This document shows positions 6,688-46,512 of a DNA stretch of 64,000 nt, one piece after another; position 1 is the first letter of the stretch, and every line of letters starts with the position of its first letter. The notes below the pieces were generated by a model. The model did no database searches, was not told the DNA's origin, and saw nothing but the letters and a program-made list of their open reading frames with translations. Source of the DNA: a virus. The position numbers were made by a program, and so were the translations under genes. The stretch is from positions 57,825 through 121,824 of IMG/VR virus record IMGVR_UViG_3300035666_000004; one strand, 5' to 3'.

Positions 6688-7334
6688 TAGAATCCTTTTA
6701 AAACATATTTAAGAGTGAGTGGAACCCCTTCTAGATCAGAAGTATATTTTAATTTAACGCTTCCAGATTCCATAACAATAGAGAGCCAAGCGCTTACATC
6801 GTTACCGATTTCTGTAAAGGAATGATCATAAGCAACGGAGCTAAAGCCGTCATTTAATATGTTGAAATCGCCTTTTCTTTTACGGCCATTACCAGTAGTT
6901 CTTTGTAATGTGTATTCGATATTTGCAAATGGTTTAGATGAACCAACGAAAACCAAAGCATCTGCTAACGTAGCTTGGCCATCTACTAAGGTGATTGTTA
7001 ACGGAACTTCGCCGACGCCAGTCCAAATGTTAGCAGCTCTTTGATAAATAGTTGAAGAAGACCCTTGAATAACAATAGCTACATCGCCATCTTTTGTTCC
7101 GGTATATAATACTTCCCAACTGTTTGGGTTAGTATCGGGCTGTAGACCTACGTTTGAATTTACTTTGGAACGGTACATCTTTCCAGAGTATTCTAAGCAA
7201 TTATATTGTGAGTAAGTAGTTGAAACATCCCAGTAATCTACTAGGTTGTTTGAAGAAAATACAATAGCAGCGTTCGCGTTATCGGTTAAAGAACCTCGAC
7301 CTAAAGCTAATGAGTCTATTTTTTGTAATGCCAC
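6687..7334 (-). CDS. Short tail fibre / adhesin with CBM-like and fibre beta domain
   Basis: 215 aa. Residues about 33-75 (YWDVSTTYSQYNCLEYSGKM, then PDTNPNSWEVL) match the aromatic pattern of small carbohydrate-binding modules of the chitin-binding type: Trp/Tyr spacing followed by PD-x-NP-x-x-W. The C-terminal 100 residues repeat the Y-x-L-x-R ... KLKYTSD ... LKY pattern found twice in the fibre gene at 998-3187. It is the first gene of the fibre operon, 71 bases downstream of a late motif, with the ribosome site GAGAGGAG before the ATG. It is likely a surface adhesin; the sugar specificity cannot be read. Confidence 0.7.
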   Translation of the reverse strand: MALQKIDSLALGRGSLTDNANAAIVFSSNNLVDYWDVSTTYSQYNCLEYSGKMYRSKVNSNVGLQPDTNPNSWEVLYTGTKDGDVAIVIQGSSSTIYQRAANIWTGVGEVPLTITLVDGQATLADALVFVGSSKPFANIEYTLQRTTGNGRKRKGDFNILNDGFSSVAYDHSFTEIGNDVSAWLSIVMESGSVKLKYTSDLEGVPLTLKYVLKGF

Positions 7335-7405
7335 TTTACTCCTCTCTTTGGGACCATCTGGGCCAAAAGACCAACAAGCATTTCTGATTGCAGGAATTAT
7401 CTATA

Positions 7406-7413
7406 AGATTAGG
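7406..7413 (-). promoter_or_regulatory. Late promoter core motif, copy 2
   Basis: CCTAATCT followed by TATAGAT on the minus strand, 71 bases upstream of the fibre operon start at 7334. The six bases after the core are identical to copy 3 (upstream of 18422). Confidence 0.65.
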
Positions 7414-7460
7414 TTAAACTGCTATATATTACAATATATTAGGGTATATGGCATTTCAGG

Positions 7461-7489
7461 TTGATTTTATTCAAGTTTTGTGGTAATAT
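7461..7489 (+). promoter_or_regulatory. Sigma70-like promoter of the small-gene array
   Basis: TTGATT (7461-7466), 17-base spacer, TAATAT (7484-7489) with an upstream TGTGG that makes an extended -10 (TGG-TAATAT). It lies 68 bases before the first gene of the array and is the only good promoter seen at its head. Confidence 0.6.
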
Positions 7490-7557
7490 TATTAGGTGGT
7501 GCCGCATACAAAGTTGCTCAAACAATTTGTGCGGAATTGCATTAACATCATTAAGTT

Positions 7558-7749
7558 ATGGAAATAATTATGGAATTATATAAGCTTTTAGTTGTTAGAA
7601 ATAGAGAAAAGAAGGTTATTGCCGAAAACTTGAGCAAAGAAGAGGTGTCTGTAGCAAAGACAGATTGGGCAACTATTTATAATAACGACGTTTATTTCGA
7701 TCCAGTTCCAGTGTTATTGGTTGAAGTGCAGCGTGAGGGTGAAGAATGA
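7558..7749 (+). CDS. Small protein of unknown function heading the array
   Basis: 63 aa, not recognised. It does not have the M-K-K-R start of the following genes. The sequence is a mixed alpha/beta pattern (ELYKLLVVRNREKKVIA, then YFDPVPVLLVEVQ). A second in-frame ATG at 7570 (MELYK) is an equally possible start; neither has a strong ribosome site. Its stop overlaps the start of the first tetrad-family gene as ATGA, so it is the promoter-proximal member of the array operon. Confidence 0.6.
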   Translation: MEIIMELYKLLVVRNREKKVIAENLSKEEVSVAKTDWATIYNNDVYFDPVPVLLVEVQREGEE

Positions 7750-7946
7750 GGAAACGCGAGCAGGCAGAAGTACATAACGCCTTGTTCTATCAAGTAAGGT
7801 ACATTCTAGATGTAATTCAAGAACCTGAAGAAGTTACAGAATATACTATTATGGATATCTTGTTAGATAATCGACTCAGACCTGTTGATGTTGCTGAGTT
7901 GCAAAAGCAAGTAAGATATTTTATTGCGAATCGGAATATAAGGTAA
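7746..7946 (+). CDS. Tetrad-family small protein, array member 1
   Basis: 66 aa, starting MRKREQ. Tetrads are irregular here; the end LQKQVRYFIANRNIR carries the family C-terminal pattern. The start overlaps the preceding stop as ATGA. Function unknown. Confidence 0.75.
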   Translation: MRKREQAEVHNALFYQVRYILDVIQEPEEVTEYTIMDILLDNRLRPVDVAELQKQVRYFIANRNIR

Positions 7947-7950
7947 ATAT

Positions 7951-8148
7951 ATGGTCAAAAGAAGGCAGCTAAGTGATTTTCTTAAAAAGTATCTCTACAA
8001 TAAGCTTTATAGCCAGTCTATGATCACAACTGAATACGTTTGGGACAAAGTATGGTACAGCACTAGACCTGATCTCTACCTATTGCTTCATGTTAATATC
8101 GAAATAGAAATTACTAAACACATAAGACAAATTAAGGCCACTAAATGA
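7951..8148 (+). CDS. Tetrad-family small protein, array member 2
   Basis: 65 aa, starting MVKRRQL. Residues 4-19 read as four clean tetrads (RRQL, SDFL, KKYL, YNKL); the middle is aromatic and out of register; the end is ITKHIRQIK. It starts 4 bases after the preceding stop. Function unknown. Confidence 0.75.
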   Translation: MVKRRQLSDFLKKYLYNKLYSQSMITTEYVWDKVWYSTRPDLYLLLHVNIEIEITKHIRQIKATK

Positions 8149-8336
8149 GGAAAAGAGACCAGATTGATGATTCTAAATTTTTTTGGCGATTAGTTGACCG
8201 CACCTTATCTTGGCGCATAGACGATGAACTTGGGGCATATCTTAGATGGCAATTTCGCGACAATTTAGATGATAACCTTTACTATCACTTGTATAGACAC
8301 ATAAGCGATTTCTTAAGGCAAGAGGAATTAAAATGA
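8145..8336 (+). CDS. Tetrad-family small protein, array member 3
   Basis: 63 aa, MRKRDQI start. The second half (residues 34-57) reads RWQF, RDNL, DDNL, YYHL, YRHI, SDFL, shifted by two residues relative to the N-terminal register. ATGA overlap with the gene before. Function unknown. Confidence 0.8.
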   Translation: MRKRDQIDDSKFFWRLVDRTLSWRIDDELGAYLRWQFRDNLDDNLYYHLYRHISDFLRQEELK

Positions 8337-8512
8337 GAAGAAGAAATTCAATTGATGCATACCATAGACTATTGCTCTCTCTTGCTAAGAATTCAGGTAA
8401 AGTCGTAAAAGATGACTATTTTAACAGACTTATGGATATAGTTCGCGAAGGGGCTAACCAAGAAATGAAAATTAAGCTCTATGCCTATTTAAAAGATGTG
8501 AGGTCAAAATGA
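8333..8512 (+). CDS. Tetrad-family small protein, array member 4
   Basis: 59 aa (MRRRNSIDAYHRLLL...). The N-terminus keeps three basic residues and I7, but Q6 is replaced by Ser. The tetrad register is weak. The end LYAYLKDVRSK is family-like. ATGA overlaps at both ends fix the start and stop. Function unknown. Confidence 0.75.
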   Translation: MRRRNSIDAYHRLLLSLAKNSGKVVKDDYFNRLMDIVREGANQEMKIKLYAYLKDVRSK

Positions 8513-8691
8513 AGAAACATATTCACATGGACGACATGTTTTATATAAAAATGCATACAGCCATAAAGTCTAGATTAGATGATAGTTTGTACGATAGATT
8601 GTATTTTATATTTTTAGACGACAAGATGAATTGCATTAGGCGTGAATTGAGAAGACATATAGCAAATTCTCTCGTAAGATGGCACAGATGA
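8509..8691 (+). CDS. Tetrad-family small protein, array member 5
   Basis: 60 aa with a deviant start (MKKHIHM, His for Arg4). Residues 4-55 nevertheless keep hydrophobics at every fourth position with one exception (units such as KSRL, DDSL, YDRL, RREL, RRHI). ATGA overlaps on both sides. Function unknown. Confidence 0.75.
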   Translation: MKKHIHMDDMFYIKMHTAIKSRLDDSLYDRLYFIFLDDKMNCIRRELRRHIANSLVRWHR

Positions 8692-8867
8692 GAAAACGAG
8701 AATTTATTGAAAAAAATTTTCATGAAAAAATCTATGAAAAATACCACGATCAACTTGATGCAAATTTGCATTTTAAATTACACCAAAAAATATACCACGA
8801 ACTACGTGAAGACATTTATTGGGAATTATATAAACAAGTTAGGAACATAGTAGCTAATTGGAGCTAA
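8688..8867 (+). CDS. Tetrad-family small protein, array member 6
   Basis: 59 aa, starting MRKREFI. I chose the ATG at 8688, which overlaps the previous stop, over an in-frame ATG at 8679. Residues 4-55 are thirteen unbroken xxx-hydrophobic units (for example HDQL, DANL, HFKL, HQKI, YHEL). Function unknown. Confidence 0.8.
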   Translation: MRKREFIEKNFHEKIYEKYHDQLDANLHFKLHQKIYHELREDIYWELYKQVRNIVANWS

Positions 8868-8868
8868 T

Positions 8869-9054
8869 GTGAAGAAACGTAAGCAATTAGATAAATTCTT
8901 TTTCAGAACACGAATGAGGTTGAATAAAGACATACCATTTCGTTTATATTCTAGTGGCCGCGTAAATCATTATATTGATTCATCTTTGACAAACAATTCT
9001 GTATGTAGCGGTATTATATTGTTAATTAAATCAGAAATCGAGGGCGAAGAATGA
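8869..9054 (+). CDS. Tetrad-family small protein, array member 7
   Basis: 61 aa, GTG start (MKKRKQL) one base after the previous stop; the ATG one base earlier would read straight into TGA. The tetrad register breaks after residue 11. The C-terminus is acidic (KSEIEGEE), which also supplies an A/G-rich site for the next start. Function unknown. Confidence 0.75.
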   Translation: MKKRKQLDKFFFRTRMRLNKDIPFRLYSSGRVNHYIDSSLTNNSVCSGIILLIKSEIEGEE

Positions 9055-9263
9055 GGAAGAGGGAGAGGGCCAACCTTCAGGTTAGAAGGTTAGTAGATTA
9101 CATACCATGCGATATACTTACGGCTGGGTTAACAAGCAGAATCAGCTTTAAAGCCGCTGATATGTATGATATACTTAAAGTGGGTATTATTAATAGGCTT
9201 ATACATTGCATACAAGACTATGATTCAAAAAAGGCATCAAATGAGGCGAAGAGAAATACTTAA
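9051..9263 (+). CDS. Tetrad-family small protein, array member 8
   Basis: 70 aa, MRKRERA start with ATGA overlap. Hydrophobics at residues 7, 11, 15, 23, 27, 31, 47 and 51 keep the register, with small or polar residues at others. Its last 23 bases overlap member 9 in another frame. Function unknown. Confidence 0.7.
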   Translation: MRKRERANLQVRRLVDYIPCDILTAGLTSRISFKAADMYDILKVGIINRLIHCIQDYDSKKASNEAKRNT

Positions 9264-9450
9264 CCAGCAGTTTTATATTTGGAACGAAAGCCAATGGATT
9301 GATAAGCTTTGGTATCAACTTGGAAGCGAGAGAACTAAGGTATTGATACCATTTATTAAAAACCATATTGGTGTTGAACTTAAAGAACAGATATATGGAC
9401 AGCTTAAGTGTAATTTGAGATTACATGTAAGAAATACTGAAGGGATTTAA
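9241..9450 (+). CDS. Tetrad-family small protein, array member 9
   Basis: 69 aa. The start is taken at the ATG giving MRRREIL; it lies inside the tail of member 8. Residues 4-63 are mostly in register (WYQL, TKVL, KNHI, GVEL, KEQI, YGQL, KCNL, RLHV). It ends LRLHVRNTEGI, a clear form of the C-terminal motif. Function unknown. Confidence 0.75.
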   Translation: MRRREILNQQFYIWNESQWIDKLWYQLGSERTKVLIPFIKNHIGVELKEQIYGQLKCNLRLHVRNTEGI

Positions 9451-9451
9451 G

Positions 9452-9631
9452 ATGATAAAAAGAATTCCTATTTCTAGTGAAAAGATTAGCGATAAGCTTT
9501 TTGATATGGTGTATAGTCAACCTTATTATGGAATGCGAAAGCGTATTCGTAATCAACTTAGTGTTAAGCTCAGTAACCAATTATATCAGGAATTGATTTT
9601 GCCTATTGCCTATCAAAAGAGGGTTAATTAA
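9452..9631 (+). CDS. Tetrad-family small protein, array member 10 (RIP variant)
   Basis: 59 aa. The start MIKRIPI resembles member 13 (MVKRIPL), so the two form a subgroup. Units RKRI, RNQL, SVKL, SNQL, YQEL occupy residues 29-48, shifted by one from the usual register. Its last codons and the intergenic bases belong to a 33-bp direct repeat. Function unknown. Confidence 0.75.
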   Translation: MIKRIPISSEKISDKLFDMVYSQPYYGMRKRIRNQLSVKLSNQLYQELILPIAYQKRVN

Positions 9632-9649
9632 TATGAAAAAGCGAAAACA
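9617..9649 (+). repeat. 33-bp direct repeat, left copy
   Basis: Perfectly identical to 9867-9899, 250 bases away. Each copy spans the last codons of one gene (ending KRVN), the stop, and the first six codons of the next (MKKRKQ). The two copies bracket exactly one gene cassette. Confidence 0.9.
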
Positions 9650-9881
9650 GTTGGAGAATCAGTTCGGGTATCAGTTGGGGTATGAGTCGGTGAATCAGTT
9701 GGTGAATCAGTTGAGGTATCAGTTGGTGTATCAGTTGGTGTATCAGTTGGTGTATCAGTTGGAGAATCAGTTGGTGAATCAGTTGGAGAATCAGTTGAGG
9801 TATCAGTTGAGGTATCAGTTGAGGGATCAGTTGGTGAATCAGTTGAGAAAAACTGAAACTGTTTACAAGAGGGTTAATTAA
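9633..9881 (+). CDS. Tetrad-family protein made of 16 near-identical four-residue repeats, array member 11
   Basis: 82 aa. After MKKRKQLE the protein is sixteen tetrads (residues 9-72) of the type YQLV, YQLR, NQLV, NQLE, DQLV, then KTETVYKRVN. The DNA is a 12-bp tandem repeat with few differences, so this gene is a recently expanded version of the repeat that other members show in diverged form. The ATG at 9633 gives the family start; an upstream in-frame ATG at 9606 lies in the previous gene and is rejected. It could bind a repetitive partner or act as an expandable decoy, but there is no direct evidence for either. Confidence 0.85.
   Translation: MKKRKQLENQFGYQLGYESVNQLVNQLRYQLVYQLVYQLVYQLENQLVNQLENQLRYQLRYQLRDQLVNQLRKTETVYKRVN
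9657..9848 (+). repeat. Sixteen tandem 12-bp coding repeats
   Basis: Consensus TATCAGTTGGTG with variants starting AATCAG or GATCAG and ending GAG, AGG or GGG. The unit is a multiple of three, so gain or loss of units keeps the frame and changes the protein by four residues. Confidence 0.95.
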
Positions 9882-9899
9882 TATGAAAAAGCGAAAACA
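9867..9899 (+). repeat. 33-bp direct repeat, right copy
   Basis: Identical to 9617-9649. Recombination between the copies would delete or duplicate the gene at 9633-9881 while leaving both junction reading frames intact. Confidence 0.9.
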
Positions 9900-10065
9900 A
9901 ATTGCAGACATATCATTTAATGTTTTCAGAGAAGCATTTATTACACAGATTTATAAAAAAAGTGACTTAAAGTATAATTGCATAATTGATGAGCAACTGA
10001 CCTCTAAATTAGTAAATCAGACTCTTGGATATCAAATACGATACTTGATTATAGGTTTGTTCTAA
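9883..10065 (+). CDS. Tetrad-family small protein, array member 12
   Basis: 60 aa. MKKRKQI start identical in DNA to member 11 because of the 33-bp repeat, but the body is unrelated to the YQLV repeats. Units RKQI, FNVF, REAF, ITQI, NCII, DEQL, TSKL are in register. The C-terminus is hydrophobic (IRYLIIGLF). Function unknown. Confidence 0.75.
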   Translation: MKKRKQIADISFNVFREAFITQIYKKSDLKYNCIIDEQLTSKLVNQTLGYQIRYLIIGLF

Positions 10066-10245
10066 ATGGTTAAAAGAATCCCACTCAAAGACGGATTATA
10101 TGTTAAAATAGACAGTGCTTTTAACTGCCAGTTAGAGTACAAAGTCTATACGCTGCTTCGTGAAAAGCTTTTCGTTGTTCTTTGGGACGAAATTAGGGAT
10201 CAACTTGAAAGAAATGTCAGAATATCTTTAAAAAACAGGGCATAA
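10066..10245 (+). CDS. Tetrad-family small protein, array member 13 (RIP variant)
   Basis: 59 aa (MVKRIPLKDGLYVKI...), not separated from the previous stop. Residues 4-55 are thirteen tetrads without exception, including NCQL, EYKV, REKL, WDEI, RDQL, ERNV. Same N-terminal subgroup as member 10. Function unknown. Confidence 0.8.
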   Translation: MVKRIPLKDGLYVKIDSAFNCQLEYKVYTLLREKLFVVLWDEIRDQLERNVRISLKNRA

Positions 10246-10246
10246 G

Positions 10247-10420
10247 ATGAGGAAAAGAGAGCAGATTGATAACATTTTATTTGTTCAATTTACAGATGTG
10301 CTTAAAGACTCATTTGGGGACAATGTAAGCATGCCATTTTTTTATAAGATAATGCTGGCATTACAAGGGGAATTAGTTGGCGAACTTTATAGACAATTAG
10401 AATCACAGGTGTTGAGATGA
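10247..10420 (+). CDS. Tetrad-family small protein, array member 14
   Basis: 57 aa, MRKREQIDNI start, one base after the previous stop. Residues 4-55 are thirteen perfect tetrads (FVQF, TDVL, KDSF, QGEL, VGEL, YRQL and so on). The first ten residues are nearly the same as member 26, evidence for copying between distant positions in the array. Function unknown. Confidence 0.85.
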   Translation: MRKREQIDNILFVQFTDVLKDSFGDNVSMPFFYKIMLALQGELVGELYRQLESQVLR

Positions 10421-10614
10421 AGAAACGAGAACAACTGATAACTAACTTATATTTTAAATTTTATAAGAAATATAACGATTTGCCAAATGAGGAAACTTTT
10501 GATATAATCAACGGAGAACTTGGCGATAAGTTAAATAGACAGATTTGGTATCCTGTTCGTGGGGAGTTATTCGATCAACTTTATTGTCATACTATTAAGA
10601 AAGAAGCGAAATGA
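10417..10614 (+). CDS. Tetrad-family small protein, array member 15
   Basis: 65 aa, MKKREQL start, ATGA overlap. In register from residue 4 to 59 with two exceptions (NDLP, NEET); later units are NGEL, GDKL, NRQI, WYPV, RGEL, FDQL. Function unknown. Confidence 0.8.
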   Translation: MKKREQLITNLYFKFYKKYNDLPNEETFDIINGELGDKLNRQIWYPVRGELFDQLYCHTIKKEAK

Positions 10615-10820
10615 AAAAACGAGTTCAAATACCTGGGCATCTTGGTGACAAATTGTGGGAACAACTGGCTTACACCATGAGCGGTCAATTAAGATTCAAG
10701 CTTAAAATGGTTTTAGCAAACTCTAGTTTAGTTGATGAATATGACACTGCTGCGGCGCATTGCCACCTTAGAAAAAATGTTTATTGCCACCTTAGATTTA
10801 ACAGTGGGATTAGAAAATGA
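10611..10820 (+). CDS. Tetrad-family small protein, array member 16
   Basis: 69 aa. The start MKKRVQIP is shared with the gene at 46707, about 36 kb away. Eight clean tetrads (RVQI, PGHL, GDKL, WEQL, AYTM, SGQL, RFKL, KMVL), then a tail with a duplicated CHLR-type motif (AHCHLRKNVYCHLRF). ATGA overlap. Function unknown. Confidence 0.8.
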   Translation: MKKRVQIPGHLGDKLWEQLAYTMSGQLRFKLKMVLANSSLVDEYDTAAAHCHLRKNVYCHLRFNSGIRK

Positions 10821-10987
10821 GACAACGCGATCAAATATATAGACATTTTTCTTCGCATTTAGATTATGAACTAAAGTGTTTGTATAGAAATCAATTTGAT
10901 GAGTGGTTGTTTTATCATATTGGGCGAAACATAGGAAATACTGTCAAGTATGATCTTATTAATTTGCAGGAATTGTTGGGAAAATGA
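10817..10987 (+). CDS. Tetrad-family small protein, array member 17
   Basis: 56 aa, the shortest member. MRQRDQI start with ATGA overlap. Units RDQI, YRHF, SSHL, DYEL, RNQF, DEWL, FYHI, GRNI, GNTV, KYDL are in register. Function unknown. Confidence 0.75.
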   Translation: MRQRDQIYRHFSSHLDYELKCLYRNQFDEWLFYHIGRNIGNTVKYDLINLQELLGK

Positions 10988-11175
10988 GAAAGCGCGAAGA
11001 AATAAGTGTTATAAACAGCATAGACCAGATTTCTAGAAACAAAATGCTTATTCAAGTAGGTACGCCTGTACGTAATCAGATTGTTAGCAGATTGCGCGAC
11101 AATCTTTTAAATGAACTATTAGACCAACTGTATATGCATACGGCTTATTACCTCAATGAGAGGGTGACAAAATGA
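10984..11175 (+). CDS. Tetrad-family small protein, array member 18
   Basis: 63 aa, MRKREEI start. After a two-residue shift, residues 18-57 read RNKM, LIQV, GTPV, RNQI, VSRL, RDNL, LNEL, LDQL and on. ATGA overlaps on both sides. Function unknown. Confidence 0.8.
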   Translation: MRKREEISVINSIDQISRNKMLIQVGTPVRNQIVSRLRDNLLNELLDQLYMHTAYYLNERVTK

Positions 11176-11369
11176 AAAAAAGGATTGAGATTGATTCCAT
11201 GGTTTTTGATAAGATTCAGGAGCATCTTTTTAATTTTTATTTCGATAAGAGAATTGATCGGTCGCTATACAAGAAATTCTTAGATGATCTTGAGGAATCT
11301 GACGCAAACAATTCCGTCAATCTTATAATGTCGGCAGTAATTTGGCGCATTGAAAGGGAAACACTATGA
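11172..11369 (+). CDS. Tetrad-family small protein, array member 19
   Basis: 65 aa, MKKRIEI start. Five N-terminal tetrads (RIEI, DSMV, FDKI, QEHL, FNFY), then a one-residue shift and DRSL, YKKF, LDDL. The end is IWRIERETL. ATGA overlaps. Function unknown. Confidence 0.75.
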   Translation: MKKRIEIDSMVFDKIQEHLFNFYFDKRIDRSLYKKFLDDLEESDANNSVNLIMSAVIWRIERETL

Positions 11370-11563
11370 AAAAACGTGATCAAATTAACTATCAACTTTA
11401 TGAGCTATACTTTGAATTTAATAAACTGTATCCAAAGTTATCATCAACAAATGATTATTACGTAATTAATACTGCAACAAGAACAGCACTTTATGATATG
11501 TTTTACGGTGAAATTAGATGGCATCTTAAAGGTTTTGTGAGAGATTTTAAGGGTTTGTCATGA
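11366..11563 (+). CDS. Tetrad-family small protein, array member 20
   Basis: 65 aa, MKKRDQINYQL start. The N-terminal tetrads are followed by a Tyr-rich spacer and a second run near the C-terminus (LYDMF, YGEI, RWHL, KGFV). ATGA overlaps. Function unknown. Confidence 0.8.
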   Translation: MKKRDQINYQLYELYFEFNKLYPKLSSTNDYYVINTATRTALYDMFYGEIRWHLKGFVRDFKGLS

Positions 11564-11754
11564 TAAAGCGTAAGCAGATTAACGACAAAGTACATAGTAG
11601 ACTACTCAAAGTGTGCTTTTCTAAATTAAAATTACCCAACAATGTTTACTTCGCAATTCATGACAGGCTTACTGAAAAACTATATGAAATTAGTTGGGGG
11701 CAGATTAGAAGCAAGGTTTACGACGAAATACATATGATAAGTAAAGTGAATTAA
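11560..11754 (+). CDS. Tetrad-family small protein, array member 21
   Basis: 64 aa, MIKRKQI start. Units RKQI, NDKV, HSRL, LKVC, FSKL, a break at a Pro-Asn pair, then HDRL, TEKL, WGQI, RSKV, YDEI in a new register. Function unknown. Confidence 0.8.
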   Translation: MIKRKQINDKVHSRLLKVCFSKLKLPNNVYFAIHDRLTEKLYEISWGQIRSKVYDEIHMISKVN

Positions 11755-11755
11755 A

Positions 11756-11947
11756 ATGACTAAAAGATATCAATTAACAGACAGATTATATACCAGCGTA
11801 CTAAGAGTATACATGCCGTCCTCTTCTTGGGTATATGACATGCTGCTTGATGAAATTTATAATCCCATTTATTTACAACTTAGGGATCAACTTAGAGAAC
11901 ACGTTCGCAACAGTATCGAATCGTTAAAGCAAAGTGAACTAAAATGA
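11756..11947 (+). CDS. Tetrad-family small protein, array member 22
   Basis: 63 aa, MTKRYQL start, one base after the previous stop. Units RYQL, TDRL, YTSV, a short Ser-rich break, then YDML, LDEI, YNPI, YLQL, RDQL, REHV, RNSI. Function unknown. Confidence 0.8.
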   Translation: MTKRYQLTDRLYTSVLRVYMPSSSWVYDMLLDEIYNPIYLQLRDQLREHVRNSIESLKQSELK

Positions 11948-12141
11948 TTAAAAGAGAGCAGATCGACAGCCAGATAGATATTATATTATATGCATACGTT
12001 GATGAACAAATTTATTATCAATTGGATAAGCTTTTTGAAAATTTCTTGAGAGAAGAGCTTGATGACCAATTATATACGGAGCTTGATATAAATCTTCGTC
12101 TTGAGCTGTACAGATATCTAAATAATGGGGTATTAAGATGA
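11944..12141 (+). CDS. Tetrad-family small protein, array member 23
   Basis: 65 aa, MIKREQIDSQI start. Fifteen tetrads in one register from residue 4 to 63 (DEQI, YYQL, REEL, DDQL, YTEL, DINL, RLEL, YRYL). One of the most regular members. ATGA overlaps. Function unknown. Confidence 0.85.
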   Translation: MIKREQIDSQIDIILYAYVDEQIYYQLDKLFENFLREELDDQLYTELDINLRLELYRYLNNGVLR

Positions 12142-12323
12142 AGAAGAGAGAATGTTTAGAGATGAAATTAGGTGATAAACTAGCTTTCAAATATTATAAT
12201 GAGTTACAAGATGGCCAACACCATTTAATATACGCTCATGTAAAAAAAACTCTCGTGAAAGAGGTTCACCAAAATGTTAGAACTCAGCTAAGTGCCTATC
12301 TGAGAGCAGAGGTACCAAAGTGA
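12138..12323 (+). CDS. Tetrad-family small protein, array member 24
   Basis: 61 aa, MKKRECL start. Fourteen tetrads with one exception (QDGQ); units include EMKL, GDKL, YNEL, VKEV, HQNV, RTQL, SAYL, RAEV. ATGA overlap in front. Function unknown. Confidence 0.8.
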   Translation: MKKRECLEMKLGDKLAFKYYNELQDGQHHLIYAHVKKTLVKEVHQNVRTQLSAYLRAEVPK

Positions 12324-12541
12324 TAAAACGCGAGCAGATTGATAGTCATATATATACTTTTATCTATGATGATTTATACAATCAGCTATATGGTCAAATT
12401 AGCGTCACGTGCGGTAAATGGACATTTGACTATGTTTACAGTAGTTTAACTTTGCAGTATTATAACTTATCATCAGATGGCCAGTACAGCTCTTTGGTAA
12501 ACATCGTTTTAACTGATCTAGAGAAAAAGGTGTTGAAATGA
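12320..12541 (+). CDS. Tetrad-family small protein, array member 25
   Basis: 73 aa, GTG start (MIKREQIDSHI) overlapping the previous stop. The N-terminus is almost that of member 23. Units YTFI, YDDL, YNQL, YGQI lead into a more polar middle, then YSSL, VNIV, LTDL, EKKV. Function unknown. Confidence 0.8.
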   Translation: MIKREQIDSHIYTFIYDDLYNQLYGQISVTCGKWTFDYVYSSLTLQYYNLSSDGQYSSLVNIVLTDLEKKVLK

Positions 12542-12717
12542 GAAAAAGAGAGCAGATTGACAACACATTGGATGACAATATAAGAGACATTTTGAATGTC
12601 AGCTTGGGCTCTAACTTTAGAAATCAAATGTTTTCACGTATTTATAGAAATGTTAGCGCAAGGGCTGATCTGCTACATTTTATATATTACTATATAAGTA
12701 CACAAAAGGTTAAATAA
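12538..12717 (+). CDS. Tetrad-family small protein, array member 26
   Basis: 59 aa, MRKREQIDNT start closely matching member 14. Nine tetrads in register (DDNI, RDIL, NVSL, GSNF, RNQM, FSRI, YRNV), then an aromatic C-terminal stretch. Its TAA overlaps the next ATG by one base. Function unknown. Confidence 0.8.
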   Translation: MRKREQIDNTLDDNIRDILNVSLGSNFRNQMFSRIYRNVSARADLLHFIYYYISTQKVK

Positions 12718-12917
12718 TGAGGAAAAGAGTACAGATAGACAGACAAATTAATGAGAATCTCAGAGACCCTTTTTACGTAAAGCTTAGTAATCAATTTAAT
12801 TATTATGCTTACAATGACATTAGGTCTAACCTATACCCAGAACTTTTCTTGATTGTATACGATCAATTATATAATAATATATATTATGTCATGAGAGAAT
12901 TGGTAGTGTCAAAATGA
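12717..12917 (+). CDS. Tetrad-family small protein, array member 27
   Basis: 66 aa, MRKRVQI start. Residues 4-63 are fifteen tetrads without a break (DRQI, NENL, RDPF, YVKL, SNQF, RSNL, YPEL, YDQL, YNNI). Function unknown. Confidence 0.85.
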   Translation: MRKRVQIDRQINENLRDPFYVKLSNQFNYYAYNDIRSNLYPELFLIVYDQLYNNIYYVMRELVVSK

Positions 12918-13159
12918 AAAAGCGAGATCGGTTACTAGATAACACAATGAGTCGGTTAATAGATCTTTTAGAAGACAGGCTTGAGAATAAGATAGTGGAT
13001 TATTTGGGTTGTCAGTTAGATGATAAGTTATATTATGAGTTTAGAAGTGAGTTAAGAATTAAGTTTTATGATCGGTTAGTAGATCAAATGAATAATCAAC
13101 TAAGACATCATTTAAGGACGCAAGTATATGGAGTCGAGAGAAAACATAGAAATATTTGA
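12914..13159 (+). CDS. Tetrad-family protein with 17 in-register tetrads, array member 28
   Basis: 81 aa, MKKRDRL start, ATGA overlap. Residues 4-71 are seventeen consecutive units with a hydrophobic fourth residue in all but LDNT: MSRL, IDLL, EDRL, ENKI, VDYL, GCQL, DDKL, YYEF, RSEL, RIKF, YDRL and so on, ending with a basic tail. Unlike member 11 the units are all different, so the four-residue spacing is kept by selection rather than by recent repeat expansion. Its last 32 bases overlap member 29. Function unknown. Confidence 0.85.
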   Translation: MKKRDRLLDNTMSRLIDLLEDRLENKIVDYLGCQLDDKLYYEFRSELRIKFYDRLVDQMNNQLRHHLRTQVYGVERKHRNI

Positions 13160-13307
13160 TTATACTCGTATAATAATGAGATCGTCATATTTTTCTTCTA
13201 ACAAAATTATATTTGAAACAGATCAAAAGCTCATGTGTATGCTAATTCCATTTTTTCTAGAAATGAGGCAGCAAATCAGGGAGCATATTACGGGCAATTG
13301 CAAATGA
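13128..13307 (+). CDS. Divergent tetrad-family small protein, array member 29
   Basis: 59 aa (MESRENIEIFDYTRI...). The N-terminus lacks the first Lys pair but keeps R-x-N-I at residues 4-7. The C-terminal part FFLEMRQQIREHI matches the family pattern. The length (59 aa) and the ATGA junction with member 30 support it as a real gene, although it overlaps member 28 by 32 bases. Confidence 0.6.
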   Translation: MESRENIEIFDYTRIIMRSSYFSSNKIIFETDQKLMCMLIPFFLEMRQQIREHITGNCK

Positions 13308-13483
13308 AGAAACGTAAACAGATTTTCTTGAAGGAATATAACCGCGTATTTACTAAAATGGGTATGCCACTTCCGTCTTCAGTTGAAGAGGCGGTAGAAA
13401 CTCAGTTAAAAGATAAGCTTAGGGATGAATTGTTACACCAACTTAGGCTTCACGTTAAAACCCATTTAATGGAAATGAAATGA
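13304..13483 (+). CDS. Tetrad-family small protein, array member 30
   Basis: 59 aa. The ATG at 13304 (MKKRKQI) overlaps the previous stop; an in-frame ATG 69 bases upstream is rejected. Thirteen tetrads with one exception (FLKE): ETQL, KDKL, RDEL, LHQL, RLHV, KTHL at the end. Function unknown. Confidence 0.8.
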   Translation: MKKRKQIFLKEYNRVFTKMGMPLPSSVEEAVETQLKDKLRDELLHQLRLHVKTHLMEMK

Positions 13484-13674
13484 TTAAAAGAAAAATGATA
13501 CAATACAATTTTAAGACTTTGTTCCACGATTGCCTGTATTCTCAACTTGAGCCAATATTGTATCATAGGCTAAGAGACAGCTTAAACCATAAGCTTCAGC
13601 ACTATACGCATAACCCACTTAAGATAGAGCTTTACTATCACATGAATGAAAAGAAAAGCTCCAATTCTAATTAA
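13480..13674 (+). CDS. Tetrad-family small protein, array member 31 (last)
   Basis: 64 aa, MIKRKMI start. Thirteen tetrads with one exception (QYNF, KTLF, HDCL, YSQL, EPIL, YHRL, RDSL, NHKL, KIEL). Its TAA overlaps the TAA of the minus-strand baseplate gene (TTAA shared). No terminator hairpin is visible between them. Function unknown. Confidence 0.8.
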   Translation: MIKRKMIQYNFKTLFHDCLYSQLEPILYHRLRDSLNHKLQHYTHNPLKIELYYHMNEKKSSNSN

Positions 13675-16600
13675 GCAACACCAACTGGTTGATATTCAAC
13701 AGAAATTGCCCATTGAATAGTCGCACCACTAGTACCATAAACAACCGCAACAACATCATTACCTGAAAGAGCAAATGTAATTGCATAGTCGCTACCATCG
13801 CCATCATATCCATTGATGTTTGAGATAGGGCTTCCAGCAGCTTGAGCCGTTCCACCTGATCTGTAGAAAGTTCCCTCTAAAGCAAATGAACTAACACCGA
13901 GTGGGCCATCGCTTCTTCTAGCAACTGCATTAACTTTAATTCTATAAGAATAGTTATCAGATAAAGTAACTTCAGATCCGCTAATGATTGTACCAGTAGC
14001 TCCAACAACAACTTGCGCAGCAGTTTTTCTAGTTACCGCTGAGTCTGGATGAGATGAATGAGTTTTAAGTTTCTCTACACCAGTCCAAACTTCTTTTGGT
14101 TTATTGTTTTCTCTACCGATTACAAAGCTTTGGTCTGTAGATTCATTGAATATTCCACCAAGCGCACTTGTTCCGCCAGCGATTGCAATTGAACCTCTGT
14201 TAATGAAACTTGTTTCGCCACCGTTTACGTTTGAAGCAGTTATATTAACCGGTCTTCCTGGGGAAGTTTGAATATCAGCGCCAGTATTATAAGCCGCTTG
14301 TAAACTGATGTCAGCAGATTTAGCTGCTAATACAGATCCATAAGAAGCCATGGCTCTGAAACGGAGTCTAGTATTAGGTGGTAAAGTACGCTTAAGTCTG
14401 ATCTTAGCTTTTGGGCCACCAAACGTTTCAACGTAATCGTAACCAGCTTCTCTGATTCCATCATTAACAATAACTAAAAGCTCTTCGCCAGTTAAGCTCA
14501 ACTCAGTTGTTTGTTTATAAACTGAATGTGCTCCGTAAGTACCGATACCGCCAGCAGAAAGAACTTCTGTACGTTTATTCGGTGGAAGAACTAATTCTGT
14601 TCCAGTATCACCAAGTGGTGCTGGATCTCCATAAAGTGATACGCCAGCAAAAGGACCATCACCTGGGTTATTCACGGTTCCTACCATATTGCCGTTTTGG
14701 TAAATGCTTGTACCATCAGCAAAGGTACCATTAACTATGTTAATGACAATTGAATTACTACCTTGTAGACCGCCCGGCATAACGATAGAAGCAGATTCTA
14801 TTGTTTCAGTTACATCGGCACTTCCGTGAAGAACCCAGGCTAGGGAGGTGGGACTTTCGATTGAACCTTGGTAGATGTAACTGCCTGAGCGTATAATATC
14901 TCCGCCAAAATTTGGCGTAAAATCCATTTTTTGTATATAGACAGACTCATCGTATACTGGTCTCTTAAGAGCAGTATTGATGCTCCCAACATTCCTGTCC
15001 TGTTTTCTATGTGCCAAAGTCAAATTGTCTTGGTCTTCAATGTGCTGATTAACTTGGTAATAAGCCAAAGTATCACTAACACTTAAAGCTGAAATATTTT
15101 GATCAACTATAACTGTAATAGACGACAATGGGAATTTAACTGTGTAATAATGGTGATTTCCACTTAAGTCAATAAACTCAAGCTTATCACCAGTTTGATA
15201 ACCTAAAAGGTTTGAAGCACTCAAAGTAATCATTTGAGTTTTAGCGTCTAATGCTATAACCTCAACTTGAGATTTATAGATGTAAGATCCGCTAGCATCT
15301 GCAATACTGTAGTTTGGATTAACTGCAGATTCAGTCATCGCACCAGTGTAAACTAAGTGGTTTGAACCTTGGTTATCGTTAACCTGTCTTACTTCACCTG
15401 GCTCCATCTCTAAAGATCTGAAGTAAACTTTAGCAGAATTATTGTTATCTCTACGTAATGCAAACCAGTAGATATCTGAAGAGTTTTCAACTAGATAATG
15501 CTTAGTAACAAAAACGTCAGAGTAAACACCTTTAGTATAAACCATAGCGCCAGTGTTAGCTGGTCTGTGTACTGTGCTAGGTGCTTGGCCATCGTTTCCG
15601 ACTAAGATCATAGATGATGTTGAGATGCTGCCAATTTTTAACCAATGAGAATCTTCTTCATTAGCAAACTTAACAAAGTCTCCTACTTCTAATAGATTAC
15701 CGCTGATATCTAAGAAGTTACCAGCAATTGTAGCACTTCCGCCCAATGTACTGTAAACAACACCATTAGAGATTGGTTGATTTCTTTCTAACTTAACAAA
15801 AGCAACTTCGCCATCTTCCAAGAAAGCTGTGCCAGTTACGCCACTTGTGTTAAACTTGTTAGCTTCAGGTGAAGATCCAGTAGTATCTACTGTAGCAGTT
15901 TGTGGAATAGTGATAGCTAAATCACCGACAACAGACTTAACAACCATGTCACCAGTCCATTGAACCGGACCTGCGTATGGATTATTGTCGAAATTTAAGA
16001 ATACATTTTGGATACCAGTGTTAGTGAAATCAGTTCCGCTTGGGATCTCAGTAGTGCTAGTTAATTTAAATGATGTAGCATCAATGTAAGTTAACGTAAC
16101 TAGCTTATATGCTTTAATAAAAGGAGATAAATTTGAATCGCCATGAATAACAACTGTAGTTGATGGGTTAGAAACTAAACCATGATCAACAGTAGTAGTT
16201 ACTTTAACTTCAGTAGCAGAAAGCTTTTGGATAGAAACAATTCTATTTGGATTAGCTACAGTAGTTTCAGCAACAACTGTATCAAAACAGATATCACCAC
16301 TAGCACTGAATAATTCAGGTAATGCGCTATCTTGTCCAACTGTGTATTGAGCTTTATCGCCAGCGATACAGAAAATTGCTTGATTAGTTGTATTGTAAGT
16401 ATTTGAAATAGCGCCAGTAACAGTTGTAATAACTTTGTGGAAAGCTATCTCAGCGTAACCGCCAGTATTAATTTGTGTAATTGCTGGATATCCTAGATCA
16501 ACTGTGATATCTTCACTTACCCCAATGCTTTCAATAGTTTTAATACCGCTAGCTTCTCTATTAGGAGCGCCGATAACTACTAAGTCAGATAATAAAACAA

Positions 16601-37819: not shown

Positions 37820-38008
37820 ATGACTAAGCGCGAATTGTCCGCATCTGTTTACATATTGGTTACTTTTATTATATGCTATTTTGCTTATGGTGTTTATCAG
37901 ACAAAACAACAAATTTCTCAAGCTTGTGAAGATCAGTGCTACCCGGCGGATGTTAAAGACGCAGATATGCAATATTGTAAATGTTTTTACAAAAAAGCTG
38001 GGATGTAA
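37820..38008 (+). CDS. Small membrane or exported protein with tetrad-family-like N-terminus
   Basis: 62 aa. It begins MTKRELS, close to the M-x-K-R start of the tetrad family, but then has a transmembrane or signal segment (VYILVTFIICYFAYGVY) and a Cys-rich tail with four cysteines (C34, C38, C49, C51 by my count). The tail would be outside the inner membrane if the segment is an anchor. It lies directly before two true tetrad genes. Function unknown. Confidence 0.6.
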   Translation: MTKRELSASVYILVTFIICYFAYGVYQTKQQISQACEDQCYPADVKDADMQYCKCFYKKAGM

Positions 38009-38181
38009 TGGTTAAAAGAGAGCGCATTAGTCTTGGTCTTAATGGTAAAATAAGTTTAGTAATCGGCGATCAAGTCGGATACGATCTATTAAATCATTTG
38101 TACACGAAGCTCTATAAAGATTTAAACTATAGTATTGCAATTAAACTACGTTCATACTTATACGAGAAACCCCAAAAATGA
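38008..38181 (+). CDS. Tetrad-family small protein next to the exonuclease, first copy
   Basis: 57 aa. The ATG at 38008 (MVKRERI) overlaps the preceding TAA; an in-frame ATG at 37981 is rejected. Residues 4-51 are twelve unbroken tetrads (NGKI, SLVI, GDQV, GYDL, LNHL, YTKL, YKDL). Function unknown. Confidence 0.8.
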   Translation: MVKRERISLGLNGKISLVIGDQVGYDLLNHLYTKLYKDLNYSIAIKLRSYLYEKPQK

Positions 38182-38375
38182 ATAAGAGAGATCAACACAC
38201 CATTTCATTTGATTATGAGCTGAGGACAGTATTTCATAATTATTTTTCAACACAAATGCATGGCGATCTTACAAGAGATGTGTGGATGGAAATTTGGGAA
38301 AAACTCGCCTACCAACTAAAAGATAATATGAAAGATAAAGTTAAAGACGTAATTAAGGACAGAATTTCAAAATGA
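38178..38375 (+). CDS. Tetrad-family small protein next to the exonuclease, second copy
   Basis: 65 aa, MNKRDQH start. After an unusual His at residue 7, fourteen tetrads stay in register to residue 63 (DYEL, RTVF, WMEI, WEKL, AYQL, KDNM, KDKV). Its TGA overlaps the exonuclease ATG, so the exonuclease is translated from the end of this gene. Confidence 0.8.
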   Translation: MNKRDQHTISFDYELRTVFHNYFSTQMHGDLTRDVWMEIWEKLAYQLKDNMKDKVKDVIKDRISK

Positions 38376-40467: not shown

Positions 40468-42639
40468 TTAATATATCTCTCGCCATTGTAATCCAGCTGA
40501 TATATTTGTGGCTTTTGTATCAATATTTTTAACAATTATGACATAAACTTCCGAGTTAGTAGAATCAAAATTTTGCACTATATAGTTCTTTTTAGCCGAA
40601 CTTGGAATTACTGCATTTGAATCGCTTCCAGCCTTACTTCCGCCTTGTGACGCAGATGCTGCAAACCCAACGCTTAGTATGTCTGCATTTGTATATCCAG
40701 TCGCATTAGCTAGATATTCAACGCCACTTTCAGAGTTAGTACTGGTCCACACTCCAGCTCCACCTGTTAAGTTAGACGCATTTTGTAATTTTGCTATAGA
40801 AAATTGAACGTTACCAGAATCAGTGAAAACTGTAACTTGTCCTAGTCTAGCTAACATACGATTTAAATATGTTTTATAATTATTTTTCAATCTAATTGCT
40901 AATATTGGTAAAGTTTGACCTGTGCCCAAAAGTCTTGGTGTGGGACTTGCAAGCGCCCAATCAATTCCAGCCTCAACATATCCGCCTTCACTAACAACTG
41001 TACTACAAATTTGATCCATATATGCACCAGTTGTAACTCCGGTGTTAAATATTTCGCAGCGAACTGGCAAATTTGGATTACTCATATAAACTGTAGTAAG
41101 ATTATTTTCGCCATCAAAATGATGCGCCTCAATATATTTACCCTCATGAGAAAACCCAACCCTGACTCTTCCCACGCCAAGCCATTGAAAATCTATAAAA
41201 AGCAACTGAGTTTTTGTAATATCTAAGTTTAAAGAACTAATTCCAGTTCCATCGCACTTGTCAACATTCCAATTTAACTGAGAAACTCTATTTTCATTGA
41301 CGGCACCATTAATATAGCTTCTTAAGACAATATTTAAGGTTCCGTTTCCGGTTTGTTCAAAGTAAATTCCATTATTATCATCAAACAGCCCAGTTCTTTT
41401 TGTCACCCCTGAAGTACTTGAATAAAAATTAAAGGATGACATTATTAGCTGGCTTTTTCCTGGCATATAATGATGATAGCATTTGGTCTGGTGTATCGCC
41501 TTACTATTAACATCACTGCTGGTAGTCAATCTCGCGCATGCTTTATTTGATTGAAATGAAATAGTTCCACCATTTAATGTATAGTCTATGAAATTTGGGT
41601 CTATTCCGTAGAGATGTTTATAGTCTCCAAGGGTATACGGCTCGCTCACTCTTTGTCTTGCAAAAGCATCTAGTGTGCCGACCCCAGGAGTTGTAAAAAC
41701 AGATCCGGATACTACCCACGGATTTGTTCCTTGATTTGCAGTAACTGTTCCGTTTACAGTTTGAGTTGCCGGGAAATTACCAACATCAACTGTTCCGTTT
41801 ACAGTTTGAGTTGCCGGGAAATTACCAACATCAACTGTTCCGTTTACAGTTTGAGTTGCCGGGAAATTACCAACATCAACTGTTCCGTTTACTGTTTGTG
41901 TAGCTGGGAAATTACCAACATCAACTGTTCCGTTTACTGTTTGTGTAGCTGGGAAATTACCAACATCAACTGTTCCGTTTACTGTTTGTGTAGCTGGGAA
42001 ATTACCAACATCAACTGTTCCGTTTACTGTTTGTGTAGCTGGGAAATTACCAACATCAATGGAAGAGTTTAAAAAATATACGTCTAACCCAATATCAGTT
42101 CCAACAGTATGCGATGTTAAAAAATTGGTTCCGTCTCCAAGACGAACAGAATCATTTGTATGTGTAAGATCAACGTCTAGGCTAACTTCTGGCTTAATTG
42201 TAATATTTGCATCAACAGCAAGTCTATTAACTCCATTTTCATCTGCTACAAATTCTGCATACTGACCATATTTATCTACGAGGATTGATCTTTTTGCATT
42301 TATTGGATCTTCTGCATGACTAGCTCTTTCAAAAATCTCCATTCCCATCGGATTTCTTTGTTGTTCCCAAGCAGTTAAGGTTCCGCCGGAGTACGAAGTA
42401 GGATTGGAAAATGTGGCCATGTCTTTTCCAACTGGACCGACTTGAATCTGAGTGTCAGAGATAACTCTCTTAATTTCAAGCTCTAGTTGTTCTAAGCCTG
42501 TTTTATTTAAATATACCAATTGTTTAGGATGTAATAATCCTTGAGTATCTGGTACTGTAATTATATGATTTGAAACTTGAATCGGATTGGCTAAAAATGT
42601 AGGCCACCGTCTATCAAACGACGAAGTTAACTTGCTCAT
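40468..42639 (-). CDS. Tail fibre-like structural protein with seven identical 15-residue repeats
   Basis: About 723 aa. I use the ATG at 42639 (MSKLTSSFDRRW), because the longer frame would need a TTG. Residues about 195-300 are seven tandem copies of a 15-residue unit (DVGNFPATQTVNGTV), a beta-repeat also seen in other phage tail proteins. The C-terminal 400 residues form a beta-rich, concanavalin-like or fibre head region (RTGLFDDNNGIYFEQTGNG, VRVGFSHEGKYIEAHHFDGE). A late motif lies 76 bases upstream. It is likely a virion adhesin or head/tail decoration protein outside the main fibre cluster. Confidence 0.7.
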   Translation of the reverse strand: MSKLTSSFDRRWPTFLANPIQVSNHIITVPDTQGLLHPKQLVYLNKTGLEQLELEIKRVISDTQIQVGPVGKDMATFSNPTSYSGGTLTAWEQQRNPMGMEIFERASHAEDPINAKRSILVDKYGQYAEFVADENGVNRLAVDANITIKPEVSLDVDLTHTNDSVRLGDGTNFLTSHTVGTDIGLDVYFLNSSIDVGNFPATQTVNGTVDVGNFPATQTVNGTVDVGNFPATQTVNGTVDVGNFPATQTVNGTVDVGNFPATQTVNGTVDVGNFPATQTVNGTVDVGNFPATQTVNGTVTANQGTNPWVVSGSVFTTPGVGTLDAFARQRVSEPYTLGDYKHLYGIDPNFIDYTLNGGTISFQSNKACARLTTSSDVNSKAIHQTKCYHHYMPGKSQLIMSSFNFYSSTSGVTKRTGLFDDNNGIYFEQTGNGTLNIVLRSYINGAVNENRVSQLNWNVDKCDGTGISSLNLDITKTQLLFIDFQWLGVGRVRVGFSHEGKYIEAHHFDGENNLTTVYMSNPNLPVRCEIFNTGVTTGAYMDQICSTVVSEGGYVEAGIDWALASPTPRLLGTGQTLPILAIRLKNNYKTYLNRMLARLGQVTVFTDSGNVQFSIAKLQNASNLTGGAGVWTSTNSESGVEYLANATGYTNADILSVGFAASASQGGSKAGSDSNAVIPSSAKKNYIVQNFDSTNSEVYVIIVKNIDTKATNISAGLQWREIY
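41746..42060 (-). repeat. Seven tandem 45-bp coding repeats in two sequence classes
   Basis: Units 41746-41880 (three copies) share ACAGTTTGAGTTGCCGGG; units 41881-42060 (four copies) share ACTGTTTGTGTAGCTGGG (plus-strand spelling). The two classes differ at silent sites but encode the same peptide, showing two separate rounds of unit duplication. Confidence 0.95.
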
Positions 42640-42715
42640 AATAAAATTTCCCCAACCCAATGAAATTATTCATTTATGCCCCACGGCATTACTAAACCAA
42701 TGTCTAGCTAATTAA

Positions 42716-42763: not shown

Positions 42764-42961
42764 TTAAATGCGTTTTGAAGTCTGAATATATCTTTGCGCC
42801 TGTTCTTTGGTTTCTTTATATAAAACATCAAATAACATACTGCCGAGATTTGAATATGATTTTGAATAAATACTATAGGATGGCATGTTGCAATATTTTG
42901 AATACAGCCTGCTTCTGAAACTAGTAAGGTGTGCGCTCCCCAATGCTTCTCGTTTTTCCAT
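42764..42961 (-). CDS. Tetrad-family small protein, minus-strand copy 3
   Basis: 65 aa, MEKREAL start. In register at residues 7, 15, 19, 23, 31, 39, 43, 47 and 59 but serine-rich and less regular (RSRL, YSKY, YSNL, GSML, FDVL). Last gene of the AAA+/VWA operon. Function unknown. Confidence 0.7.
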   Translation of the reverse strand: MEKREALGSAHLTSFRSRLYSKYCNMPSYSIYSKSYSNLGSMLFDVLYKETKEQAQRYIQTSKRI

Positions 42962-42962
42962 C

Positions 42963-43154
42963 TTATTTGCCTATTTTTTCTTCATATAATTGTTGGTGAG
43001 TTTGATCTCTTAATTCGTACCAGAGCGTGATGTCTTTTAATTGCTCCCAAATTTGGGCATACATTTGATCTGATATTGTGGAATGGAGCCACATATACAG
43101 TTCGTCCCTAAATCTCTCTCTTAGTTTATCCCGAAACTGCTCTCTTTTTCTCAT
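42963..43154 (-). CDS. Tetrad-family small protein, minus-strand copy 2
   Basis: 63 aa, MRKREQF start. Nine tetrads (RDKL, RERF, RDEL, YMWL, HSTI, SDQM, YAQI, WEQL), then a shift and YELRDQTHQQLY. Gap of one base to the next gene. Function unknown. Confidence 0.8.
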   Translation of the reverse strand: MRKREQFRDKLRERFRDELYMWLHSTISDQMYAQIWEQLKDITLWYELRDQTHQQLYEEKIGK

Positions 43155-43346
43155 TTATGTATTTTTCTTTTGGGTTTCGTGACAGATTTGTTCACATATT
43201 TGATCAATCAATTCTGCATTGATTTCATATATTTCTTCCCAAGTCCCTTCTAAAACATTATCAATAACGTCACCATATACGTTTCTATCAATCATTTCAT
43301 ATAAATGATCTTTGATTTTTCTATATATCTGATGACGTTTTTTCAT
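43155..43346 (-). CDS. Tetrad-family small protein, minus-strand copy 1
   Basis: 63 aa, MKKRHQI start at 43346; a longer in-frame start at 43403 lies inside the VWA gene and is rejected. Units RHQI, YRKI, KDHL, YEMI, DRNV, YGDV, IDNV, WEEI keep the register. It begins 7 bases after the VWA stop, so it is co-transcribed with the AAA+/VWA pair. Function unknown. Confidence 0.8.
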   Translation of the reverse strand: MKKRHQIYRKIKDHLYEMIDRNVYGDVIDNVLEGTWEEIYEINAELIDQICEQICHETQKKNT

Positions 43347-46315: not shown

Positions 46316-46507
46316 ATGAGGCAAAGAGATCAGATAAATAGAATAAGCAACAAGTATTTTGATCATATTGACGGCGACCTTTATAATGAAAATTTTCATT
46401 TAATATCAGATTATCTCCAATACATTTTATACATTGAGCGCTCACCAGTCGATAACATTGTTGACGAGCTATCCACATATATTGAGACTATGAATTTGGG
46501 GAATTGA
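46316..46507 (+). CDS. Tetrad-family small protein, second cluster, member 1
   Basis: 63 aa. I use the ATG at 46316 (MRQRDQI), with GAGGG 8 bases before it, rather than the one at 46304. Units are partly in register (RDQI, NKYF), then shift (SDYL, QYIL, NIVDEL, STYI). Function unknown. Confidence 0.75.
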   Translation: MRQRDQINRISNKYFDHIDGDLYNENFHLISDYLQYILYIERSPVDNIVDELSTYIETMNLGN

Positions 46508-46512
46508 TTTAA

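Follow-up and report, generated by a model that had tools for sequence, protein, structure and literature searches.

We analyzed a 64,000-nucleotide (nt) stretch of viral DNA, hereafter the window (positions 57825-121824 of the 121,824-base-pair [bp] IMG/VR contig IMGVR_UViG_3300035666_000004). Its most conspicuous element is an array of 31 tandem open reading frames (ORFs) of 56-82 amino acids (aa) on the plus strand (positions 7746-13674), whose products start with M-x-K-R-x-Q-[IL] and continue as degenerate tetrapeptide repeats. The window also contains a gene for a 208-aa core protein with the domain DUF6745 (PF20530; 45666-46292, +; Pfam E = 5.3e-8, 32.8 bits, cut-off 27). We propose that the array is probably a DUF6745 system in its split form, in which one core is served by many interchangeable helical repeat peptides. 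Very probably, the array genes are a split-off repeat family. That their products physically partner DUF6745 is slightly favored over the opposite, and a role in counter-defense or another arms race is a tentative suggestion. A tandem tetrapeptide-repeat locus beside DUF6745 has no earlier report that we found: a literature search retrieved no report naming DUF6745 or the six repeat motifs, and nothing relevant on tandem small paralogs or tetrapeptide repeats in phages.

The array is a real multigene family. The interval is filled almost completely by its ORFs (99.8%). Neighbors share a 4-nt overlap at 19 of the 30 junctions (ATGA; GTGA once), and spacing at the remaining 11 ranges from +4 to -32 nt. 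Four genes (longest-ORF starts 8679, 9166, 9606, and 13235) were assigned motif starts instead (8688, 9241, 9633, and 13304), and two genes use a GTG start codon. When each ORF was scored by a hidden Markov model (HMM) built without it, 28 of the 31 passed at E <= 1e-3, with the top score for 12717-12917 (+; E = 1e-14). The failures were 8333-8512, 9051-9263, and 13128-13307; the last (+; E = 0.16) has lost the motif and overlaps its upstream neighbor by 32 nt. None of 240 shuffled residue copies passed the full HMM. Over 46 starts, Arg4 is encoded by five codons (AGA 19, CGA 9, CGT 7, CGC 6, AGG 3) and Gln6 by two (CAG 18, CAA 11); thus, the N-terminal motif is conserved at the protein level and not at the DNA level. 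A promoter and terminator scan of 7300-13760 gave counts at chance level (34 versus 31.1 and 3 versus 2.2).

A first-pass annotation, made from the sequence alone, had described 31 tandem small genes on one strand with a conserved N-terminal start and no described family, and these descriptions were borne out. Among the 48 family candidates of this phage, scans of 10 against Pfam and PHROGs found nothing over the cut-offs (best Pfam E = 6.9e-4, below cut-off), an NCBIfam scan of four found nothing over the cut-off, and a PADLOC scan of one gave no significant match. Weak matches of array members to Integrase_H2C2, Trigger_C, and similar models were below their cut-offs and were rejected. A tblastn search of the phage collection with the regular member 9633-9881 gave no match.

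The same annotation stated that the bodies differ strongly. This holds for sequence identity, but a strict four-residue period is common to them. We tested 46 window candidates, counting six weak ones but omitting gene 9633-9881 and the first seven residues of each protein. Hydrophobic residues recurred at every fourth position: at lags 4, 8, and 12, the z values were 18.1, 14.0, and 13.2, respectively, compared with -2.7, 1.3, and 0.9 in a control set, the first 40 phage ORFs longer than 180 aa. The most regular member (9633-9881, +) is a plain x-Q-L-x tandem repeat with 15 in-frame QL units, all encoded by CAGTTG, and two variable x codons. The array bodies are thus degenerate tetrapeptide repeats. 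In an AlphaFold2 monomer model, a member of a second array (47277-47480, +; modeled as 47277-47477) is predicted to be a single 65-residue alpha helix with a predicted local distance difference test (pLDDT) score of 92.5, which is weak evidence for the true state of a single helix.

Regular tetrapeptide-repeat arrays of the flavors xQLx, xQVx, and xSVx were found near DUF6745 genes of other phages. An HMM trained on 11 proteins of regular arrays, drawn from four other phages, matched 17, 29, and 36 of the 48 window-phage candidates at E values of 0.001, 0.01, and 0.1, respectively. It matched none of 2,086 control ORFs at any of these thresholds, and 0, 0, and 2 of 960 shuffled sequences. Profile-profile comparison (hhalign) of the window family with the other arrays gave 97.3% and E = 2e-11. 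Common descent is therefore likely; it is not proved, because same-period repeats can converge in sequence, and the genomic link to DUF6745 common to both sets of arrays is a stronger argument than profile similarity. The N-termini of the other arrays are quite different (MNFNNPLxNKLHTQL, MKSTREQLYxQL, MKQSLNNSV, and MTLKDSVYNSV). M-K-K-R-x-Q-I therefore looks like the helix start plus first repeat unit peculiar to the window phage and not like a universal targeting tag.

The tie to DUF6745 was assessed by an alignment search, which yielded 35 viral loci in 29 clusters at 90% identity. Repeats were called when 5 of 7 consecutive units had [QSN][LIVMF] in register, and a locus was called split when two or more same-strand repeat ORFs lay within the fetched flanks (up to 7 kilobases [kb], shorter for some loci). 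By this fixed criterion, 6 clusters were fused, 17 were split, 6 were neither, and none was both (Fisher P = 0.0019). Revision by eye gave 7 fused, 16 split, and 6 neither (P = 0.0011): locus L233, with xSAV repeats, was moved to the fused class, and L200 was considered doubtful, since, of its two repeat ORFs, one lies partly on the DUF6745 gene, in a different frame. The per-locus counts of repeat ORFs include overlapping frames (L218 has 18 by the criterion and 11 genes by reading). Among control ORFs (44 loci, 584,948 bases), only 2 of 3,853 passed the repeat criterion. One of these is itself a truncated fused DUF6745 gene, of which the start remains at the end of contig G005 (L019:1-461); the contig ends inside the x-Q-L-x repeats; since contigs break within repeats in this manner, fused genes may be undercounted in assemblies. 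In a scan of viral contigs with a repeat-DNA pattern, the matches listed included arrays L075 and L128 and fused protein L173, all with DUF6745, along with the window phage itself and many out-of-frame or unrelated repeats. The fused and split forms thus exclude each other, and an odd array in one phage is tied to a widespread type of phage locus (16 or 17 of the 29 viral DUF6745 clusters split, 6 or 7 fused).

The alignment places the repeat insert of the fused proteins at one position in the DUF6745 core, where split cores have a short linker; the window core has no internal repeats. The two forms exclude each other and the insert occupies a single site, a classical indication that parts function together, and the small helices of the split form may therefore dock on the core. 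A fused protein, as present in phages and some cyanobacteria, consists of an N-terminal domain, a stretch of variable four-residue repeats that is probably helical, and a C-terminal domain. In the split form, seen in the window phage as in many others, the core has no repeat stretch, and the repeats are supplied as separate peptides of 60-80 aa from tandem overlapping genes. These peptides probably dock on the core at the insert position, so that one core combined with dozens of variable helices could present alternative binding faces. New versions come about as 12-bp units and entire genes are gained or lost, with the framework residues kept and the two other positions varying. The likeliest use would be the binding of variable intracellular targets, for example, host defense or host regulatory proteins. 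Counter-defense would fit best because the peptide set is hypervariable, phage borne, and of a binding type. With considerable reserve, we suggest that DUF6745 of phages, and in fused form of some cyanobacteria, may be a holder of hypervariable recognition helices, and that in some phages its stand-alone library of up to ~40 peptides may constitute a detachable, evolvable counter-defense repertoire, in which repeats would be combined to recognize host targets as these change. If the peptides are indeed swappable binding parts of one scaffold, this would be a new viral way to hold and vary recognition modules. The suggestion of many alternative partners in the first-pass annotation survives in part: the small proteins are diverse and plausibly interchangeable partners of something, but their bodies are not unrelated.

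Comparison of closely related loci showed how arrays change. Loci L216 and L217 (8.7 kb compared) are 99.2% alike; their single long difference, of five units (60 bp), falls within an array gene. L209 and L210 have six differences in DUF6745 and 2 and 8 detected repeat ORFs, respectively. Two array genes that could be paired between them had nonsynonymous divergence (dN) of 0.17 and 0.24 and synonymous divergence (dS) of 0.17 and 0.35; dN was <= 0.027 in 10 of the 11 further ORFs of 100 aa or more that the two loci share. In young arrays, the two x codons vary against near-fixed framework codons (L203, CAA in 80/80 and TTA in 79/80; L218, TCT in 128/129; at the lowest, L219, GTT in 37/43). The framework hexamer differs between phages, so the arrays have no common DNA signal. 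Pairs of distinct units one step apart in 14 sets of young arrays comprised 41 synonymous and 293 nonsynonymous changes, the expected synonymous share being 0.30-0.42. Arrays thus turn over fast through unit and gene copy number, with variation favored at the x positions. The window array looks old by its sequence: its codons are mixed, and the protein pattern is kept.

We also mapped repeat flavor, assigned by eye, onto a tree of 23 core proteins, from which the short core of the window was excluded. Flavor changed 8 times, compared to a mean of 13.4 for shuffled assignments, and none of 200 shuffles was as low. The SV and QL flavors clustered clearly. The fused or split state changed three times on the same tree.

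Several observations weigh against the proposed reading. The 31-gene array lies 32 kb from the DUF6745 core gene. The window core could be decaying, since it is short, lacks the C-terminal part of its relatives, and has no companion gene (a gene for a ~110-aa protein, described below, that was not found among the ORFs of window-phage contig G002). Six of the 29 clusters have neither an insert nor a detected array, some of them with short flanks; clusters L203 and L224 were first met through their repeats and the others through DUF6745, so that the sample was not wholly blind; and DUF6745 is absent from contig L146, whose repeat ORFs are of uncertain frame. The dN/dS ratios of the paired array genes (1.00 and 0.67) are not above 1, dS being high too, so strong positive selection by ortholog dN/dS was not shown, and one of the 11 other shared ORFs of L209 and L210 is as diverged as the array genes (dN = 0.18). 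At the unit level, the nonsynonymous excess reached P < 0.05 in 7 of the 14 sets, and the pairs share units and are not independent, so that these P values are merely indicative. On the core tree, the NL flavor was not clustered (4 changes; 500 of 500 shuffles as low) and QV clustered weakly (45 of 500 shuffles as low); the match between flavor and core could also reflect plain co-inheritance. The repeat stretch of a fused DUF6745 model has low confidence, and monomer models are uninformative about a complex. The argument for docking comes from genome comparison, and no observation points to a target.

Four other explanations were weighed. In a structural role, the repeat helices would oligomerize into bundles or filaments that DUF6745 caps or nucleates. 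The prediction of one long helix bearing a hydrophobic stripe (47277-47480), the high copy number of the array genes, and a framework kept while other positions vary would all suit such a role. It is nevertheless unlikely: a 4.0-residue period drifts around an alpha helix and fits a long ordinary coiled coil poorly, a single building block would not need ~40 versions, and the fused proteins examined hold one repeat stretch each. Somewhat less likely still is a 12-bp satellite that would expand by slippage and gene duplication in a mostly neutral or selfish way and whose products would do little. The 12-bp units, the 60-bp difference, the shifts in gene number between near-identical phages, the near-uniform framework codons within each young array, and the ortholog dN/dS of about 1 agree with this. 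The aged window array, however, keeps its protein pattern (z = 18) though the start-motif codons have drifted, its start/stop overlaps are retained, variation between units is mostly nonsynonymous, and arrays are tied to a repeat-less DUF6745.

The first-pass annotation had suggested a fixed N-terminal docking or packaging signal joined to many alternative bodies, for example, virion-packaged peptides or coat-like proteins. Conservation of M-x-K-R-x-Q-[IL] at the protein level in the window phage speaks for such a signal, but we consider it improbable with unrelated bodies as its cargo, and virion packaging or a coat function finds no support here: the bodies share the period-4 pattern and are tetrapeptide repeats like those of other phages, whose arrays start differently, and the link to virion genes is positional only, the relative G003 having other genes at that place. 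A diversity-generating retroelement, which would write the variable x codons by targeted mutagenesis, is the least probable source of the variation. As in such elements, variable codons stand in a fixed framework, with near-identical framework codons and variation concentrated in the x codons. A reverse transcriptase (PF00078) was matched in none of the 17 records searched, some of which are fragments, and the arrays vary in unit and gene number; to our knowledge, diversity-generating retroelements do not vary unit number. We retain the split DUF6745 system as the preferred explanation.

Fused DUF6745 proteins are the closest known counterparts of the window genes. The one match in the phage collection was the DUF6745 protein gp38 of Mycobacterium phage prophiGD102-1, in which x-Q-L-x units form a long internal stretch, and the fused form is also present in Caudoviricetes cta39025 and some cyanobacterial chromosomal copies. 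These proteins share the core domain and a similar x-[QSN]-[LV]-x repeat with the window phage, and their insert is located where split cores have the short linker. They differ in having one repeat stretch within one protein, whereas the window phage has ~40 separate genes and a core without repeats. Actinobacterial DUF6745 proteins presumably carry x-Q-V-x repeats; the copy checked, that of the Mycobacterium prophage, has x-Q-L-x. For a moderate-quality DUF6745 model, Foldseek found no match in PDB at E <= 0.001, and the best VIA-align Z value against PDB was 4.6.

Outside viruses, a contig search for DUF6745 relatives retrieved one contig, from a cyanobacterial metagenome-assembled genome (MAG). 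DUF6745 was present in 11 of 146 sampled genomes from the phylum of this MAG, with up to seven matches. Three of the 16 cyanobacterial DUF6745 loci recognized by script passed the repeat criterion (L239, L242, and L255); L262 and other cyanobacterial loci are periodic by eye and fail it. In one cyanobacterial ORF (L257:271-2037), DUF6745 is joined to leucine-rich repeats, another case of recognition-type repeats attached to this core.

The companion gene mentioned above encodes ~110 aa with the pattern HGE...SETTGNHH...RH...VRD. Of the viral loci, 34 of 35 have a match (E <= 0.01) in the vicinity of DUF6745, four of these 34 having contributed to the model, as do 11 of 25 cyanobacterial loci; examples are L204:221-559, L075:2721-3065, and L209:7693-8025, with 31 more in viral loci. 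It had no Pfam match. This gene is a probable operon partner of DUF6745.

The isolated Microcystis phage LMM01 offers a further comparison. Like the window phage, it has a run of small same-strand ORFs, 21 in number and all hypothetical (MAP_137-MAP_157, L236:36752-41397), and a repeat-less DUF6745 gene (MAP_174) lies ~13 kb from this run. The best matching places in seven records from relatives cover 47-51% of the LMM01 array. These ORFs differ from those of the window in following the pattern MKIIN...GPAxFYYRL...EDN and having no tetrapeptide repeat by eye. The neighbors of the DUF6745 gene in LMM01 are replication and repair genes, a setting that suggests an early role inside the cell for DUF6745.

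The window family is not confined to the array of 31 genes that had first been noticed, which itself occupies a variable site between what the first-pass annotation named tail-fiber and baseplate operons. In the 158-kb phage contig, 42 of the 48 candidates passed the leave-one-out HMM; those starting at 8333, 9051, 13128, 47477, 48927, and 51094 did not. A second array begins 23 nt downstream of the DUF6745 gene and comprises six further members recognized by HMM (46316-47480, +). Two members lie at 38008-38375 (+; leave-one-out E = 6.9e-7 and 3.8e-6) and three at 42764-43346 (-; E = 7.6e-4, 5.4e-13, and 5.4e-9). Single members are scattered at 48114-48332 (+; E = 1.7e-6) and 48704-48925 (+; E = 3.1e-10), and a doubtful one is at 48927-49133 (+; E = 0.13). 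One member beyond the window, which was absent from the HMM training set, gave E = 2.7e-10.

A DNA pattern for the N-terminus matched 27 stretches in viral contigs; among these, a motif scan found the array only in two other contigs of the same phage. With 65.7 and 69.1 kb identical to the window contig, they do not count as independent evidence; one of them (157,572 bp) has near-identical 194-bp ends. The nearest relative found, G003 (56% sheath identity), retains the array-flanking genes, which encode proteins of 215 and 1,583 aa (43% and 45% identity), but other genes occupy the 5.8 kb that separate them. That all related phages might lack the family had been raised in the first-pass annotation as a point against it; by HMM, no member was found in G003, but the more distant G005 (32% sheath identity) carries a fused DUF6745-repeat gene and other phages have similar arrays. 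Because G005 has the fused gene, the lineage of the window phage holds both the fused and the split form.

Two other repetitive features were noted in this lineage. Multicopy small proteins that mostly start with MKRSEM[IV] and end near WEPED are encoded in G003 (79861-80088, 80954-81163, and 96934-98515) and G002 (107284-107719) and form another N-terminally conserved family of small paralogs, with a start resembling that of the array proteins. A tail-fiber-like protein of the window (40468-42660, -) contains tandem 15-residue repeats (VGNFPATQTVNGTVD), and its copy in the near-identical contig G002 is 15 aa shorter, corresponding to one 45-bp unit.

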